A program made the translations under genes and the position numbers. This document shows positions 20,439 to 25,232 of a stretch of 25,232 nt of DNA, one piece after another; within the stretch, counting starts at the first letter, position 1, and every line of letters begins with the position of its first letter. Origin of the DNA: a virus; IMG/VR virus record IMGVR_UViG_3300042505_001297, positions 1 to 25,232 of that record; one strand, given 5' to 3'. The notes under the pieces are model-generated. The model had not been told where the DNA came from, did no database searches, and saw only the letters and a program-made list of their open reading frames with translations.

Positions 20439-20563
20439 AGGCCCAGAATCACCCCCAGAAGGTCGCGGACGGCACGGGCGAGCGTGGAGTCGCTTCCCAG
20501 TTCCTGCCCGAGCCTGACAAGCACGAGGGCTTGCAGGACGCCGTCCCAAGTCAGCCGACGCAT
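20435..20563 (-). CDS. very small protein, unknown function
   Basis: The protein has 42 residues and starts 'MRRLTWDGVLQALVLVRLG'. The ATG (complement of 20561-20563) overlaps the end of the prim-pol gene by 13 bases and has a good GAGGTG ribosome site five bases upstream. It is amphipathic and helical, with basic and Leu/Val-rich sides. It ends convergently on the last plus-strand gene. Short length makes chance possible, but the ribosome site and fit at the end of the operon support it. Confidence 0.45.
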   Translation of the reverse strand: MRRLTWDGVLQALVLVRLGQELGSDSTLARAVRDLLGVILGL

Positions 20564-21048
20564 GCGAGCACCTCGTCGAGGATCGCCGCAGGCAGATCGG
20601 CCACCGGCGTGTTGGTTGGGGTGAGCAGCCATTCGTACCGGCCCCCGGCGGGGTGTCGGGACGGCGGGAGGACGGACTGGGCGGCGCGCCCGCCGATCCG
20701 GACTTCGAGCGGACCGGCATGAAGGAACGCCACGGCCGGGAGATTGGTTGTCCACTTGAACAGCCGGTGCTCGCCCCGGTGCGACCGCCATGTCGGCGTG
20801 GGGAGGTCGAGGACGCCCATCTGGGCGAGAGCATCGCGCCCCGCCGGTTCGTCGAACTCGACATCGATCAGACCGGACGCGGGGCCGAGGAGTAGGCCGA
20901 CGCCGGACCCCGACCGCAGCCATGCGGCCACGGTGTCGGGGTCGGTTGTCGCCCTGTCGGGCCAGCCTGCTCCGAGCGGGCGCTTCTCGCCCCTCGCGAG
21001 TCGCACCATGCGGGCGCCGGAGGCGAGAAGGTGGCGGATGTCGTCCAT
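20551..21048 (-). CDS. stand-alone prim-pol (bifunctional primase/polymerase) domain protein
   Basis: The protein has 165 residues. The ATG (complement of 21046-21048) has GGAGAA upstream; a longer frame to 21204 overlaps the preceding gene and is less likely. It shows the compact prim-pol core: 'KRPLGAGWPDRATTD' at 22-36, 'GVGLLLGPASGLIDVEFDEP' at 49-68 with acidic pair D62/E64 for metal binding, 'WRSHRGEHRLFKW' at 87-99 and 'EVRIGGRAAQSVLPPSRHP' at 115-133 followed by GGRYEW. These match archaeo-eukaryotic primase-like prim-pol domains of phage and plasmid replication proteins. A C-terminal helicase domain, often fused in this family, is absent. A role in priming phage replication is inferred. 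Confidence 0.85.
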   Translation of the reverse strand: MDDIRHLLASGARMVRLARGEKRPLGAGWPDRATTDPDTVAAWLRSGSGVGLLLGPASGLIDVEFDEPAGRDALAQMGVLDLPTPTWRSHRGEHRLFKWTTNLPAVAFLHAGPLEVRIGGRAAQSVLPPSRHPAGGRYEWLLTPTNTPVADLPAAILDEVLACVG

Positions 21049-21104
21049 CGGTTGGTTCTCCGTTGGTTGTGGGTTGTGGTTGTCTTGGTGTCGTCGGTCG
21101 GTGG

Positions 21105-21443
21105 TCAGGCGGTCGCCGCTTCGGCCCTCATCAAGGCGTGGGCGATTTCGGGAATCGCGCCCAAGCCGTCGTTGTGCGACCAGTTCGGCAGCGCTCGCGC
21201 CCATCGTAAGTTGACGGAGGCATGGTCGGAATAGCAGGCCGCTAGGTAGCGGGTCGCTAGCGTCAGCCGCAGCCGATCCAGCCGCATCGGTCGGTGCGGA
21301 AGGACGCGGGTTGTCGTGCCGGCGATCGTTGCTACCCAGCCGTCGCGGACCTTGCGGAACTGAAGCTCGACGTGGGGGTGCGATTCAACGAATGCGTCGG
21401 CGTCGGCGGCGTTGTCGATCCATCGGACATCGAAAGCGGTCAT
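21105..21443 (-). CDS. hypothetical protein of the early operon
   Basis: The protein has 112 residues from the ATG at 21443 (complement), with AAAGGAA upstream. It begins 'MTAFDVRWIDNAADADAFVE', then 'HVELQFRKVRDGWVATIAG' (strand-rich) and 'DRLRLTLATRYLAACYSDHA', ending in an Ala-rich helix. A small alpha/beta protein with no recognised motif. It lies 57 bases upstream of the prim-pol gene, and a strong hairpin separates it from the gene before it. Confidence 0.6.
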   Translation of the reverse strand: MTAFDVRWIDNAADADAFVESHPHVELQFRKVRDGWVATIAGTTTRVLPHRPMRLDRLRLTLATRYLAACYSDHASVNLRWARALPNWSHNDGLGAIPEIAHALMRAEAATA

Positions 21444-21469
21444 CGTTCGTTCCTTTTCCTGAGGTGTTG

Positions 21470-21494
21470 CCCGCCCGGCGAAGTGCCGGGCGGG
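21470..21494 (-). terminator. strong GC hairpin between early genes (terminator or attenuator)
   Basis: CCCGCCCGGC (21470-21479) and GCCGGGCGGG (21485-21494) form a perfect 10-bp stem with a five-base loop. It begins eight bases after the stop of the upstream minus-strand gene. No T-run follows, so it is not a textbook intrinsic terminator. Partial termination, mRNA stabilisation or processing between two early genes are the options. Confidence 0.5.
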
Positions 21495-21501
21495 GGGCGA
21501 A

Positions 21502-22002
21502 TCAAGCGGTGGCAACAGCGCCGACTACATCGGCGGCACGGTCGGCCCCGATGATGCGGGCGACGGCGGCACGGTAGATGTCGACAAGGTAAACGGAAGA
21601 CGGCTCGCCGCAGTCCGCCATTTCCACCATGTGCAACCACCATCCGGGGAGGTCGCCGCCGTCGGAGGTGGGCAGATTGCAGGCAATGTCCGACGCCCCG
21701 TAGTTGCGACGGCCGAAGACGGCAGCAGGGACATCCGGGGCGAGAACCGGGACGCCGTCGAACGTCGCGGAGCGGAGGATGGCGGCGGTGGAGAGGTCGT
21801 CTGCGGTCCAGTCGTCGTAGCTGGCGTGGATGGTCGCGATCAGCGCTTCGATGGGTGATGCAAAGTCACGAACGACGTTGCCGATCGGCTCGCATTCGTA
21901 GCCGTTGTCGATTTCGATGTCGCAATCGGGATCGTGCCAATCGGCGCGAAGGGTGTATTCGGTGTCGCGGATGGTCGCGGTGATCATGGTGTCGGCGTTC
22001 AT
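21502..22002 (-). CDS. hypothetical protein, first gene of an operator-controlled early operon
   Basis: The protein has 166 residues from the ATG at 22002 (complement), GGAG upstream. It begins with strands 'MITATIRDTEYTLRADWHD', 'CDIEIDNGYECEP', then a helical part 'FASPIEALIATIHASYDDW', and ends 'VYLVDIYRAAVARIIGADRA'. The sequence is acidic, like many small phage early proteins that contact host or phage enzymes. No family is recognised. The promoter at 22053-22082 with an embedded palindrome would give a leader of roughly 45 bases, and transcription could run on to the prim-pol gene. Confidence 0.65.
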   Translation of the reverse strand: MNADTMITATIRDTEYTLRADWHDPDCDIEIDNGYECEPIGNVVRDFASPIEALIATIHASYDDWTADDLSTAAILRSATFDGVPVLAPDVPAAVFGRRNYGASDIACNLPTSDGGDLPGWWLHMVEMADCGEPSSVYLVDIYRAAVARIIGADRAADVVGAVATA

Positions 22003-22052
22003 GGGAGAGCTCCGGGGAGGTTGGTGGTGTCGGGGAATCCCCCGCCGCGGTA

Positions 22053-22103
22053 GATATACCCGATATCGGGATATCAGTGCAAGAGGGGAGAGAAAAAGTT
22101 TTT
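22053..22103 (-). promoter_or_regulatory. promoter with palindromic operator, copy A
   Basis: Read on the minus strand: -35 TTGCAC (complement of 22077-22082), 18 bases, -10 TATATC (22053-22058). The spacer contains the perfect palindrome CCCGATATCGGG (22059-22070), flanked by TATA/ATAT that widen the symmetry. An AAAAACTTTTT tract lies upstream (22093-22103), like an UP element. Copy D at 24948-25001 shares the whole arrangement, including the C-rich stretch between tract and -35. It would drive the 22002 gene and those behind it. Confidence 0.7.
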
Positions 22104-22106
22104 CGA

Positions 22107-22331
22107 TTACTGCTGCGCACCGGGAAGAAGCACCTCTTCCACGTCGACGCCGTAGACGGACAGCGTCACGCTCGAGCCTGCCGGCGTGACCTTGAACCAG
22201 GCTCGGCCGGTCGCGTAATCGACTTCGTATTCCGTCTTGCAGTTCCACATCGTCTCGAGGAACTCCATCCTCCCCCGGAACTCGTCGCAGAGCTTGTCGA
22301 GCTTTTGCCTGGATCGTTTTCGTTTCGCCAT
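22107..22331 (-). CDS. small hypothetical protein
   Basis: The protein has 74 residues from the ATG at 22331 (complement), with GAGG upstream. A basic N-terminus ('MAKRKRSRQKLDKLCDEFRG') leads into a helix, followed by strands 'KTEYEVDYATGRAWFKVTP' and 'SVTLSVYGVDVEEVLL'. The layout (basic helix then a small sheet) could bind nucleic acid, but no motif is decisive. It has its own promoter-like -10 and palindrome just upstream, so it is probably an independently controlled early gene. Confidence 0.6.
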   Translation of the reverse strand: MAKRKRSRQKLDKLCDEFRGRMEFLETMWNCKTEYEVDYATGRAWFKVTPAGSSVTLSVYGVDVEEVLLPGAQQ

Positions 22332-22351
22332 TATCGGCCTCGCTGCTCTAT

Positions 22352-22369
22352 CCCGATGTCGGGATTGTA
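22352..22369 (-). promoter_or_regulatory. -10 element with palindromic operator, copy B
   Basis: On the minus strand a good -10 box TACAAT (complement of 22364-22369) is followed directly by CCCGACATCGGG (22352-22363), a one-mismatch form of the palindrome in the other promoters. Here the operator covers the likely start point rather than the spacer. No convincing -35 is visible. It would control the gene starting at 22331. Confidence 0.6.
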
Positions 22370-22406
22370 GGGCGGCAGTGTGCCGCGATCGGAAATGAAA
22401 AGGGAA

Positions 22407-22664
22407 TCAACCCTCAACGCGAGGGCGGCCGCGGCTCGGGTCGCGCTGGAAAGCCTTGGCGGAATCGGCATCGACAATGTAGTTTCTGCCAATCTTCAGA
22501 CCGGCAACCTTGCCGGACGCAACAAGCTTTCGCAGCCATGTTTCGTCGACGTCTGCCAGGCGCGCCGCCTCCGGCAACGGAATCATCTTCGAGATGTCGA
22601 CGGAAGGGGCGGCGGCCGCCGCTGGTTTCCGTGCTCGAGCTTTTGGGGTGGTGCGTTTTGGCAT
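22407..22664 (-). CDS. small helix-turn-helix DNA-binding protein (excisionase/MerR-like)
   Basis: The protein has 85 residues from the ATG at 22664 (complement), with GGAGG five bases upstream. After a disordered basic Ala-rich lead (1-25), residues 28-70 form a winged-HTH of the excisionase/HTH_17 type: 'IPLPEAARLADVDETWLRKL', then 'VASGKVAGLKIGRNYIV' and 'DADSAKAFQR'. The 'xPEAAxLxxVxxxWLRKLVxxGxVxGxKIGRxY' logic is standard for DNA-binding proteins that read a target with a helix and wing. Its promoter carries the shared palindrome, so it could be autoregulated. It may be the regulator of the operator set or an excisionase; the sequence does not decide between them. Confidence 0.8.
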   Translation of the reverse strand: MPKRTTPKARARKPAAAAAPSVDISKMIPLPEAARLADVDETWLRKLVASGKVAGLKIGRNYIVDADSAKAFQRDPSRGRPRVEG

Positions 22665-22681
22665 GATGCCCTCCGGCGAGG

Positions 22682-22709
22682 ATTATCCCGACATCGGCTT
22701 CCGAGTCAA
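22682..22709 (-). promoter_or_regulatory. promoter with palindromic operator, copy C
   Basis: On the minus strand: -35 TTGACT (complement of 22704-22709), 16 bases, -10 GATAAT (22682-22687). This is the best sigma-70-like promoter in the window. The spacer contains GCCGATGTCGGG (22687-22698), a variant of the shared palindrome. The predicted transcript starts only about 10 bases before the HTH gene, right at its GGAGG, giving a very short leader. Confidence 0.72.
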
Positions 22710-22726
22710 CAGGACTCCGCGTTTTC

Positions 22727-22838
22727 CGGTTGGTTGTCTGCGGTTGGTTGTCTGCGGTTGGTTGTCTGCGGTTGGTTGTCTGCGGTTGGTTGTCTGCGGT
22801 TGGTTGTCTGCGGTTGGTTGTCTGCGGTTGGTTGTCCC
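22727..22838. repeat. 14-bp tandem repeat, eight copies
   Basis: The unit CGGTTGGTTGTCTG is repeated head to tail without change for seven copies, and an eighth ends CCC instead of CTG. The 14-bp period is not a multiple of three, so no coding function is expected. It lies directly upstream of the HTH gene promoter. Related GGTTGGTT words occur in the leader of the prim-pol gene at 21050-21070. Confidence 0.95.
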
Positions 22839-22977
22839 GATTCCCAGGCGAAATCCGTCCAGACGATCATCGTCGCCACGACATTCGTTCAAACGATACT
22901 TGTTTCCACAAGTGTTGGTAATTTAGGAAAGATTATTGCATTTTCGCCTGTTTTTACGGTGTTTTTGCGGTTTTTGC
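22839..22977. other. AT-rich segment between two repeat blocks
   Basis: About 140 bases are clearly poorer in GC than everything nearby, with T-rich tracts near the right end (CCTGTTTTTACGG) and small inverted repeats (CGTTCAAACG; ACTTG-TTTCCA-CAAGT around 22898-22913). There is no credible gene. An AT-rich core beside direct repeats is a common layout for replication origins, but no known initiator gene sits next to it. The end of the segment resembles the sequence before the second repeat array near 25010. Confidence 0.45.
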
Positions 22978-23565
22978 TCGGCGGTGCGGTGTGCGGTCTG
23001 TGGTCTGTGGTCTGTGGTCTGCGGTCTGCGGTGCGCTCGAGCACCGCGGCGGCCGCGGTGTGGCGCTCGAGCGGTGCGGTGCGGTCTGTGGCGCTCGAGC
23101 GGTGCTCGGCGGTGCGGTGCGGTGCGGTGCGGTGCGGTGCGGTCTGTGCCAGGTGTGGCGCTCGAGCGGTGCTCGGCGGTGCGGTGCGGTGCGGTGCGGT
23201 GCGGTGCGGTGCGGTGCGGTCTGTGCCAGGTGTGGCGCTCGAGCGGTGCTCGGCGGTGCGGTGCGGTGCGGTCTGTGGTGCGCTCGAGCACCGCGGCGGC
23301 CGCGGTACGGCGCTCGAGCGGTGCGGTGTGCGGTCTGTGCCAGGTGTGGCGCTCGCGCGGTGCTCGGCGGTGCGGTCTGTGCGGTGCGGTCTGTGCGGTG
23401 CGGTGCGGTGCGGTGCGGTGCGGTCTGTGCCAGGTGTGGCGCTCGAGCGGTGCTCGGCGGTGCGGTCTGTGCGGTGCGGTCTGTGCGGTGCGGTGCGGTG
23501 CGGTGCGGTGCGGTCTGTGCCAGGTGTGGCGCTCGAGCGGTGCTCGGCGGTGCGGTGTGCGCAAC
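22978..23565. repeat. composite GC-rich repeat region with palindromes
   Basis: Nearly every base belongs to overlapping repeats of GCGGT. Higher units can be seen. CTGTGCCAGGTGTGGCGCTC begins at 23144, 23221, 23335, 23425 and 23515. The last three starts are 90 bp apart and, compared by eye, the 23335 and 23425 units differ by one base. ACCGCGGCGGCCGCGGT, an 8-bp inverted repeat around one G, occurs at 23043 and 23290 and again at 25094. The palindrome GCTCGAGC occurs many times. Open frames exist on both strands only because stops are absent. The block lies between a terminator and a promoter, so it is non-coding. Confidence 0.9.
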
Positions 23566-23603
23566 AAAAAACCGCACCGGGGGGGATTACCCCGCGGTGC
23601 GGT
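23566..23603 (-). terminator. intrinsic terminator of the 68-aa/GP88-like operon
   Basis: On the minus strand ACCGCACCG (complement of 23595-23603) pairs with CGGTGCGGT (complement of 23571-23579), with extra C/G pairing inside, and is followed at once by TTTTTT (complement of 23566-23571). It begins about 15 bases after the stop of the 68-aa gene. Stem strength and T-run make this the clearest terminator in the window, and it shields the repeat region from transcription. Confidence 0.78.
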
Positions 23604-23617
23604 CTATCGGGGTTTCC

Positions 23618-23824
23618 CTACTGTGCCGATGTCGGTTTTTTCAAACCGCGACGATCCATTTCCAGCCTGTAGGCCTGCAAGAGCATAGCACCGCCGAAAC
23701 TTGCACAGCTGTAGGACAAGCGCCGTTCCTCGGCCACTAATTCGAGATCGGAAAGGCGGTTTCCCGGATTGTTCTCCGGCCGAATGTTCCGGACGATATC
23801 GGCCGCGGTGATTACATTTTCCAT
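23618..23824 (-). CDS. small hypothetical protein
   Basis: The protein has 68 residues from the ATG at 23824 (complement), with AGAGGAAAA as ribosome site. It begins 'MENVITAADIVRNIRPENNP', followed by 'RLSDLELVAEERRLSYSCAS' and 'GGAMLLQAYRLEMDRRGLKK'. Three helices are likely, with no known motif. It lies 67 bases behind the GP88-like gene, separated by a 12-bp tandem repeat, and is followed by a strong terminator, so it ends that transcription unit. The palindrome-like GCCGATGTCGGT at 23625-23636 falls within its last codons. Confidence 0.6.
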   Translation of the reverse strand: MENVITAADIVRNIRPENNPGNRLSDLELVAEERRLSYSCASFGGAMLLQAYRLEMDRRGLKKPTSAQ

Positions 23825-23834
23825 GGTTTTTCCT

Positions 23835-23891
23835 CTGTGGTGCGGTCTGTGGTGCGGTCTGTGGTGCGGTCTGTGGTGCGGTCTGTGGTGC
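23835..23891. repeat. 12-bp tandem repeat, four full copies and a partial
   Basis: CTGTGGTGCGGT is repeated four times head to tail, followed by nine bases of a fifth copy. It fills the gap between the GP88-like stop and the ribosome site of the 68-aa gene. The words GCGGT and CTGTG are the same as in the large repeat blocks. It would be transcribed as part of the operon and may set spacing or RNA structure. Confidence 0.9.
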
Positions 23892-23903
23892 TCAATTGAG
23901 CAC
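23888..23903. repeat. perfect 16-bp palindrome over a stop codon
   Basis: GTGCTCAATTGAGCAC reads identically on both strands and contains the stop codon of the GP88-like gene. The half CAATTGAGCACCGCGG recurs inside the same gene at about 24834-24849. It may be a protein-binding site or a small transcript hairpin; the sequence does not tell which. Confidence 0.7.
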
Positions 23904-24896
23904 GGGAAAAATCTCTTCCGTTTCTGGACGATCCGATACCCAAGCTAGATCGATAACGGCGGTACCATCCTGTCGCAATTCGTCGACAAACCATGTTTGC
24001 CCAGCGGGGAACGGCTTTGCAAACCCGAGCTCAATAGCGGTCTGTTTAGCCTTTCGACCGCCTTTCAATCGCAGCCCCACGCACACCCCTTTCCCGTCGA
24101 ATTCCGGAGTCCGGACGTCGGAAATGTCTCCGTCGACAACTGGCATTGCAAACCACTCCCCGGTCGTGTGATTGAAAAACTCGACCGTTTTTGGGAGAAG
24201 TCCGTATCGGTGCCGCGGCCCGAAATAGTAGCTATCGAAAACGACGATCATATTCACGCCAAGATCGTACATTTCCCGAGCGGTGCGGTAGTCTGTGCTT
24301 TCCTTGACGGAAAAAGATAGATGGTAGTTTGCGGGGTATTCTCCACGGGCGTATCGACGGCACCGCTCGGCGCATGCGGTGTAATCGTAGAATGTCACGT
24401 CGGGGTGCATGCGCATGATTTCCGCGGGGTGTGCGATATCAGAGGCGGTATTGAGGCGGCAGAATGCCCGAGCGCCTTTTTTGGCCGCCCGCCTTGCAAG
24501 CGCCACAAGCGCCGAATTCAGCCGCTGGTAGAAACGTTGCGGCCAGTATGCCCACAAACGAGTACGTTTGGTTGCGGCCGCGCGCACCGTTGCGGTAACC
24601 GTACGGCCCGCAAACCACAGCACACACGCCAGAATGCAAGCCCGTGTGGCATGCGGGCAGACATTCACCACGCCACTACGCTTTGACGGCGCGAGACTGA
24701 TACCAGCATTGATGATAGAAGCGCCGTTAGGGGTTTTCCGGATTTTTGTGTTGTCGCTCAGAATGTTGCGCACCGCCTTATCGGCCGCGGCCGCCTTATC
24801 GCTCGGCGGGGAAAGCTTGAAGCGGGGGTTTCTCCAATTGAGCACCGCGGCCGCGGCGGTTTTAACGGCTCGAGCGATTTTGTTGACGATCGTCAT
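23892..24896 (-). CDS. GP88-like phage protein with Cys motif
   Basis: The protein has 334 residues from the ATG at 24896 (complement), preceded by AAGGG. An upstream GTG at 24938 lies almost on the predicted start of transcription and is less likely. An Ala-rich N-terminus (1-40) is followed by 'NILSDNTKIRKTPNGASIIN', then 'GISLAPSKRSGVVNVCPHAT' with 'CILACV' (C-P-x-A-T-x3-C-x3-C), and further on 'NYHLSFSVKES', 'MIVVFDSYYFG' and 'GVCVGLRLKGG'. The 'NxK..K......S..LAP...SG..NVCP.A...C...C' series is that of phage gene-product-88-like proteins (also DUF7227), whose function is not known to me. Codon use is less GC-biased than in the late genes. The opening codons contain the GCACCGCGG words of the repeat blocks. 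Confidence 0.72.
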   Translation of the reverse strand: MTIVNKIARAVKTAAAAVLNWRNPRFKLSPPSDKAAAADKAVRNILSDNTKIRKTPNGASIINAGISLAPSKRSGVVNVCPHATRACILACVLWFAGRTVTATVRAAATKRTRLWAYWPQRFYQRLNSALVALARRAAKKGARAFCRLNTASDIAHPAEIMRMHPDVTFYDYTACAERCRRYARGEYPANYHLSFSVKESTDYRTAREMYDLGVNMIVVFDSYYFGPRHRYGLLPKTVEFFNHTTGEWFAMPVVDGDISDVRTPEFDGKGVCVGLRLKGGRKAKQTAIELGFAKPFPAGQTWFVDELRQDGTAVIDLAWVSDRPETEEIFPVLN

Positions 24897-24947
24897 TTCA
24901 CTACCCTTGGGTGTTTGTGCGTCGCGGGGAATCCGCACCGCCTCAAT

Positions 24948-25001
24948 ACGATAACCCCGATATCGGGATAATGCAAGCGGGGAGAACAGGAAAAGTTTTT
25001 T
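24948..25001 (-). promoter_or_regulatory. promoter with palindromic operator, copy D
   Basis: On the minus strand: -35 TTGCAT (complement of 24971-24976), 17 bases, -10 TATCGT (24948-24953). The spacer contains the perfect palindrome CCCGATATCGGG (24956-24967). An A/T tract (AAAAAACTTTT, complement of 24991-25001) and C-rich stretch upstream match copy A closely, which suggests the two promoters share origin. It would drive the GP88-like gene with a leader of about 45 bases. Confidence 0.7.
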
Positions 25002-25024
25002 GGCCTGTTTTTGCGGGGAAATTT

Positions 25025-25106
25025 GCGGTGTGCGGTGTGCGGTGCGCTCGAGCGGTATTCGGCGGTGCGGTGTGCGGTCTGTGGCGCTCGAGCACCGCGG
25101 CGGCCG
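25025..25106. repeat. degenerate GCGGT-type repeats before the right-hand array
   Basis: GCGGTGTGCGGTGTGCGGTG words, GCTCGAGC palindromes and a third copy of the 17-base inverted repeat ACCGCGGCGGCCGCGGT (25094-25110) are found here. They are the same building blocks as in 22978-23565, in new order. The block lies upstream of the GP88-like gene promoter. Confidence 0.85.
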
Positions 25107-25232
25107 CGGTGCGGTGTGCTCGGCGGTGCGGTGTGCTCGGCGGTGCGGTGTGCTCGGCGGTGCGGTGTGCTCGGCGGTGCGGTGTGCTCGGCGGTGCGGT
25201 GTGCTCGGCGGTGCGGTGTGCTCGGCGGTGCG
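25107..25232. repeat. 17-bp tandem repeat running off the window
   Basis: CGGTGCGGTGTGCTCGG is repeated head to tail seven times without change, and an eighth copy is cut by the window end. The true size of the array is therefore unknown. No gene is visible within it. Confidence 0.95.

Follow-up and report, generated by a model that had tools for sequence, protein, structure and literature searches.

A palindromic candidate operator at the early promoters of a phage known from a metagenome-derived contig

Palindrome copies and genes of the early block

The window analysed here is a linear contig of 25,232 bases (IMG/VR record IMGVR_UViG_3300042505_001297), which is probably a fragment of a phage genome. 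Its leftward early block converges with a rightward tail block that holds the tape measure gene. The initial annotation reported a 12-base palindrome at four early promoters of this block, and proposed that one regulator acts on it, perhaps a small helix-turn-helix (HTH) protein encoded in the same block. We searched the window for the motif CCCGAYRTCGGG with a tolerance of two mismatches. The whole window contains four matches that deviate at no more than one base, at positions 22059, 22352, 22687 and 24956, exactly where they had been annotated. Copies A, B and D are exact, and copy C contains one outer mismatch.

Reading of the minus strand bore out the annotated context of these copies: three are located in the spacer between a -35 and a -10 box, and one directly follows a -10 box. 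Copy A (22059..22070, minus strand; CCCGATATCGGG) is located in the spacer of promoter A (22053..22082), which is composed of TTGCAC (22082-22077), an 18 bp spacer and TATATC (22058-22053), and which belongs to the operon ending in a primase domain gene. Copy B (22352..22363; CCCGACATCGGG on the minus strand) directly follows the sequence TACAAT (22369-22364) and precedes a gene encoding a 74-aa protein. Copy C (22687..22698; GCCGATGTCGGG on the minus strand) is located in the spacer of the HTH gene promoter, promoter C (22682..22709, minus strand), with TTGACT (22709-22704), a 16 bp spacer and GATAAT (22687-22682), a layout like that of the HTH2 promoters of related phages. Finally, copy D (24956..24967, minus strand; CCCGATATCGGG) is located in the spacer of the GP88 gene promoter. 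This promoter D (24948..24976), whose assignment is based on the consensus, is composed of TTGCAT (24976-24971), a 17 bp spacer and TATCGT (24953-24948). Promoters A and D have counterparts at positions 2977 and 273, respectively, of the near-identical contig L005. A promoter-plus-dyad scan with strict boxes overlooks the window's own copies, because the -35 boxes there are TTGCAY.

The four copies precede four different minus-strand units, as the initial annotation had also noted. Copy D is followed by a GP88-family gene (23892..24896; PF17338, E 9.8e-36) and an open reading frame for a 68-aa protein without a family match (23618..23824). A putative terminator-like stem with a T run, read by eye (23565..23602, minus strand), closes this unit. 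Copy C precedes the gene of the HTH_17 protein (22407..22664), an 85-aa regulator candidate that ends in a GRPR tail, and copy B precedes the 74-aa gene (22107..22331), whose product has no family match and which in relatives forms a pair with the HTH gene. Behind copy A lies an operon of three genes: two open reading frames without a family match, encoding proteins of 166 aa (21502..22002) and 112 aa (21105..21443), and a last gene encoding a protein with the N-terminal domain of a primase/polymerase (Prim-Pol; 20551..21048; PF09250, E 1.3e-27). The intergenic gaps of the early block are filled by tandem repeat arrays with units of 5, 7, 12, 14, 17 and 90 bases (22727-22836, 22985-23556, 23834-23891 and 25106-25232); in the related contigs L046 and L077, arrays with other repeat units are also present between early genes.

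The A/T tract and C-rich stretch that had been described as common to copies A and D are indeed seen in the sequence (AAAAACTTTT..CTCCCC.CTTGCA), and these copies also share GGATTCCCCG downstream. The shared stretch covers about 75 bp, as might result from a duplication. The possibility that the palindrome acts as a terminator or RNA hairpin was considered and rejected: copies A, C and D are located upstream of the likely start, and none of the copies is followed by a T run.

All four copies are located outside gene calls, that is, within the non-coding 8% of the window (2,011 bases), so that the motif is intergenic and does not occur equally in coding regions. Dinucleotide shuffles of the early block (20551-25232) contained on average 0.13 copies, with a maximum of two, and none of 1000 shuffles reached four.

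Inverted repeats at the promoters of related phages

The exact extended site was found in only one other viral contig, the near-identical L005. Relatives recovered on the basis of GP88 or metallophosphoesterase (L006-L015) do not contain an operator with at most one mismatch, L005 excepted, and comparison of the window with known phages did not reveal DNA similarity. A probe for a planctomycete host via the phage genes returned only primase domains of a generic kind and weak matches to phosphoesterases. Single-protein scans reached relatives via the tape measure and primase proteins, and a scan with a primase-domain alignment gave 80 related viral loci. About 60 of these 80 contigs encode HTH_17 relatives of the window protein. 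Most relatives have one or two such small proteins, usually encoded upstream of the primase gene, and nearly all of these homologues end in a GRPR-type tail. A homologue of the 74-aa protein (47-58% identity) adjoins the HTH gene in L046, L076, L077, L085 and L097; GP88 is kept beside this pair in L046, L076, L097 and L077, and L085 keeps the pair. In L086, two tandem HTH_17 genes (1244-1728) directly precede the primase gene.

Early promoters of the relatives, with spacers of 16-18 bp, repeatedly contain inverted repeats of altered spelling in these spacers (GCCGATCGGC, CCCGACCGGG and ACCGATRTCGGT), notably those of the HTH_17 genes themselves and often further ones in a given genome. The primase promoters of L044, L083, L085 and L097 contain the core of the window motif, CCGAYRTCGG, in the form ACCGATRTCGGT, at the position that it has in copy C and with changed outer bases. 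The primase promoter sequence is TTGATAAAGCTACCGATGTCGGTAATGAT in L085 and L097, and similar in L044 and L083. Conservation of the motif upstream of genes in relatives, as envisaged in the initial annotation, therefore holds for the core and its position, and not for the exact 12-mer.

We then analyzed HTH2 promoters that were picked by their boxes, ignoring palindromes. This gave 22 distinct promoters, including that of the window, with near-consensus boxes and spacers of 16-17 bp. The sequence adjacent to their -10 boxes is palindromic beyond its own shuffles (56 versus 46.8, standard deviation 2.5; reached in 0 of 2000), and inverted repeats in the spacers exceed chance as well (117 versus 101.3, standard deviation 3.1; 0 of 1000 shuffles), although these shuffle figures overstate the independent evidence, as the genomes compared share ancestry. 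No such excess is seen for direct repeats at 9-11 bp in the spacers: 986 of 1000 shuffles reach the observed value. Moreover, 38 of 161 promoter spacers contain the motif CCGA-N0-3-CGG; among random 20-mers its frequency is 1.5%, and of 36 mirror decoys two contain it.

A recurrence test, which omitted the defining HTH or primase promoter of each genome, revealed the same dyad at 26 further promoters in 18 genomes, a few of which are weak promoter look-alikes; 3.5 were expected from permuted dyads, with a maximum of 11 in 500 permutations of the dyad letters. For example, L062 has the sites TTGACA-GGCTATTTACCGATCGG-TAGATT, TTGACC-GCATTTTGGCCGATCGG-TAATAT and TTGACA-GCGTATTTACCGATCGG-TAATAT besides its HTH2 site, and hence four units with the dyad. 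L064 also has four such units, and the count is three or four in L093 and L099 if the GCCGATAGG forms are included.

These results bear on two explanations that do not invoke a regulator of the phage itself. According to the first, the element would be part of the promoter as read by RNA polymerase (an extended spacer or -10 element) or a copied promoter, without a separate regulator. The very constant distance to the -10 box and the approximately 75 bp common to copies A and D, as if duplicated, would fit such an element. However, the spacers are palindromic beyond chance, unrelated dyads occupy the same place within one genome, and the changes between spellings are symmetric on both arms (GCCG..CGGC versus CCCG..CGGG and ACCG..CGGT), which makes a pure promoter element unlikely; of all explanations considered, we give this one the least credence. 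According to the second, the phage has adopted the site of a host regulator, e.g. an SOS or stress repressor, and thereby couples its early genes to the condition of the host cell. Borrowing of host repressor sites by phages is known, and the same spelling is common to some of the relatives. On the other hand, when 84,980 species genomes were searched for TTGCA-N2-5-ATCCCGATATCGGG, nine scattered hits were obtained, which is about the number expected by chance and points to no single clade. Since, in addition, the spelling differs among related phages and several dyads can be present in a single genome, a host regulator is less likely, and we regard it as quite improbable.

Other inverted repeats were observed at these promoters. 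A single phage can have as many as three kinds of spacer dyad, as in L046 (TACCGATAGCGGTA, TATCCAGTTGGATA and TGTACGCCCGTACA). The third kind of palindrome (TGTACGCCCGTACA, TGTACACCTGTACA) is present in promoter spacers at about 5063 of L046 and about 7035 of L044, both on the minus strand, and in L046 it stands before an integrase-like gene. ATATCC-N4-GGATAT repeats are located in the GP88 gene promoter, with a similar one before the 74-aa/HTH gene pair (L046 about 15319 and 15385; L097 19258, minus strand). The L046/L097 subgroup would thus have at least two operator classes. In the HTH2-type promoters of relatives (L047, L062, L066, L074, L081 and others), the distance between the -10 box and the first ATG is six or seven bases in 35 of 35 cases, so that the HTH2 mRNA of these relatives should be leaderless. 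Unlike its relatives, the HTH gene of the window has a GGAGG before its ATG.

The small HTH protein and known regulatory systems

The HTH protein of the window matches Pfam family HTH_17 (PF12728) with an E value of 0.0014 and 19.3 bits, which is under the cut-off of 27; 15 of the 18 family members match HTH_17 (E <= 0.05). Its PHROG matches are excisionases or regulators, and a search of the 84,980 genomes with the protein did not give a match. A structure model built from 18 homologues (mean pLDDT 74) has the order helix-helix-strand-strand-helix. The end of the model is a short helix (66-71) followed by the loose GRPR tail, and a long C-terminal helix is not predicted. According to Foldseek, the nearest solved structures are Pukovnik Xis, TraN and BldC, followed by RdfS, P2 protein 4lhf and SoxR; these matches are weak by E value (0.03-0.3), and their probability is mostly high (0.9-1.0). 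Sequence profile comparison likewise ranked Pukovnik Xis (PDB 4j2n) first. The model and the profile comparison thus assign the protein to the small winged HTH proteins with a Xis/BldC-type fold.

Proteins of this kind include recombination directionality factors (RDFs). Apl of phage 186, P2 Cox and Xis-type RDFs bind cooperatively, as monomers, to direct repeats spaced by about one helix turn, and Apl is a repressor of early promoters besides being an excisionase (PMC7498355). The window protein resembles them in being a small winged HTH phage protein whose model is nearest Pukovnik Xis and whose PHROG matches include excisionases. We considered whether the sites could be read as direct repeats of the RDF type, and rejected this possibility because inverted repeats are in excess and direct repeats are not. 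Were the HTH protein the regulator, its mode of binding would therefore differ from that of its characterised fold relatives.

Regulators of the MerR type offer another comparison, because copies A, C and D are located within the -35/-10 spacer and SoxR, a distantly similar winged HTH protein, is among the fold matches. MerR operators need spacers of 19-20 bp and a coiled-coil dimer. The window spacers, however, are 16, 17 and 18 bp long, and the HTH model lacks a C-terminal coiled-coil helix. As for lambda CI/Cro, no HTH_3/XRE match was detected in the window record. We did not class the system as RDF, MerR or CI, because in each case a defining feature was looked for and not seen.

Dispersed operators of phages over an early regulon are nevertheless an already known kind of control, and the view of the initial annotation that the control system looks undescribed was too strong. 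The repressor of L5-clade mycobacteriophages binds asymmetric stoperators, of which up to about 30 are present per genome and which also stop elongation (PMC6550527, PMC9283540). Likenesses to the present case are one regulator with dispersed sites at early promoters, a spelling that varies between relatives, and a site at the repressor gene suggestive of autoregulation. Here, though, the record contains four symmetric sites, which are located at promoters only and none inside gene calls. The SPbeta element SPBRE is 15 bp long and repeated in promoter regions of phage genes; it was found by sequence and later shown to be the site of the master repressor MrpR (PMC10516654). It shares with the palindrome that it is repeated at phage gene promoters and was first known from sequence alone, but MrpR has a tyrosine recombinase fold, and no such protein was seen in the window record. 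The L5 and SPbeta sets thus differ from the present one in site shape and protein.

The strongest rival explanation is an XRE (CI/Cro-like) repressor encoded outside the fragment. The sites would then be operators of this or another phage regulator, and the HTH_17 gene would be a target, encoding an excisionase or otherwise. Short palindromes over early promoters are the typical binding sites of XRE repressors. Of the 27 related records searched, nine contain XRE-type (HTH_3) genes, and some of these nine (L062, L064 and L047) have dyads at early promoters. Integrases (PF00589) are matched in eight of the same 27 records, and the HTH fold is nearest Pukovnik Xis. A search of the window record did not detect HTH_3, nor was a PF00589 integrase matched in this probable fragment. 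The annotated absence of a lambda-like repressor therefore stands for the record, and it does not extend further, given that the record is a fragment and such genes occur in a third of the related records searched. However, the dyad-bearing records L076 and L097 (31-44 kb) also lack an HTH_3 match, as does the window; in L047 the dyad is located at the HTH_17 promoter and no copy was seen at the XRE gene; and it is the HTH_17 gene that constantly accompanies the dyad. On balance, we consider this explanation rather unlikely. Near the XRE genes of L098 (about 2852-2930) and L064 (about 2354-2420), large inverted repeats are followed by a sequence like the 3' end of a tRNA, and these are possibly phage attachment sites.

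A candidate early control circuit

Taken together, the sites are real and conserved in position, and they are most likely operators of early genes. We consider it fairly probable that a phage-encoded early regulator or repressor has the palindrome as its operator, the HTH_17 protein (22407-22664) being the most likely regulator. The idea of the initial annotation that one regulator, perhaps this protein, is responsible is retained to this extent: the element is operator-like over the early block, and the repeats at the relatives' own HTH promoters make the HTH protein the best candidate.

Several observations weigh against this interpretation. In the window, a good -35 box was not seen for copy B. 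When two mismatches were permitted, the additional matches were scattered and the total of 16 slightly exceeded the shuffle mean of 11.2, and a de novo search of the window alone for any recurrent near-palindrome gave three copies, which is not significant since at least three were obtained in 43 of 300 shuffles. Consequently, the window by itself leaves the operator claim only moderate, and the case for an operator rests on the comparative evidence. There, the recurrence test found no second site for L107, L101 and L090. Changes in repeat spelling do not clearly follow one HTH protein, and two HTH paralogues are present in many relatives. L090 and L098 have CCCGACCGGG at the HTH2 promoter and GCCGATMGG or similar at other promoters; covariation of the spelling with the HTH recognition helix, suggestive in these two genomes, fails at their other promoters and was rejected. 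L077, the closest relative by HTH sequence (62%), has a different dyad at its promoters, one that is not obviously shared. Furthermore, the sites of the window type are inverted repeats, in contrast to the direct repeats of RDFs, which are spaced by about 10-11 bp. Another regulator may be encoded outside the fragment.

If the HTH_17 protein is the regulator, it would most likely bind the inverted repeat as a symmetric dimer, within the spacer of the -35 and -10 boxes or immediately behind these boxes. The bound dimer would exclude RNA polymerase from the promoters of the GP88, HTH and 74-aa genes and of the primase operon, and by repressing its own promoter the protein would also exert negative autoregulation. 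Near-consensus boxes and ordinary spacers of 16-18 bp suggest that an activator of the MerR type is not needed. From presumably active promoters that would need blocking, and a site at the regulator's own promoter, we infer a repressor with negative autoregulation; repression is accordingly favoured over activation on the basis of promoter layout.

For phages known here from metagenome-derived contigs alone, this provides a testable control circuit, with named promoters and a candidate protein. More speculatively, a large uncultivated phage group may be run by Xis-fold proteins that have turned into dimeric early repressors binding inverted repeats, which would silence their own mRNA (leaderless in relatives) and other early units, and whose repeats would have diversified into per-phage immunity groups; we put this forward as a tentative possibility. 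Should the HTH protein prove to be the repressor, an excisionase-type fold would have been converted to an early repressor that binds inverted repeats, and the diversified repeats could predict mutual exclusion among these phages.

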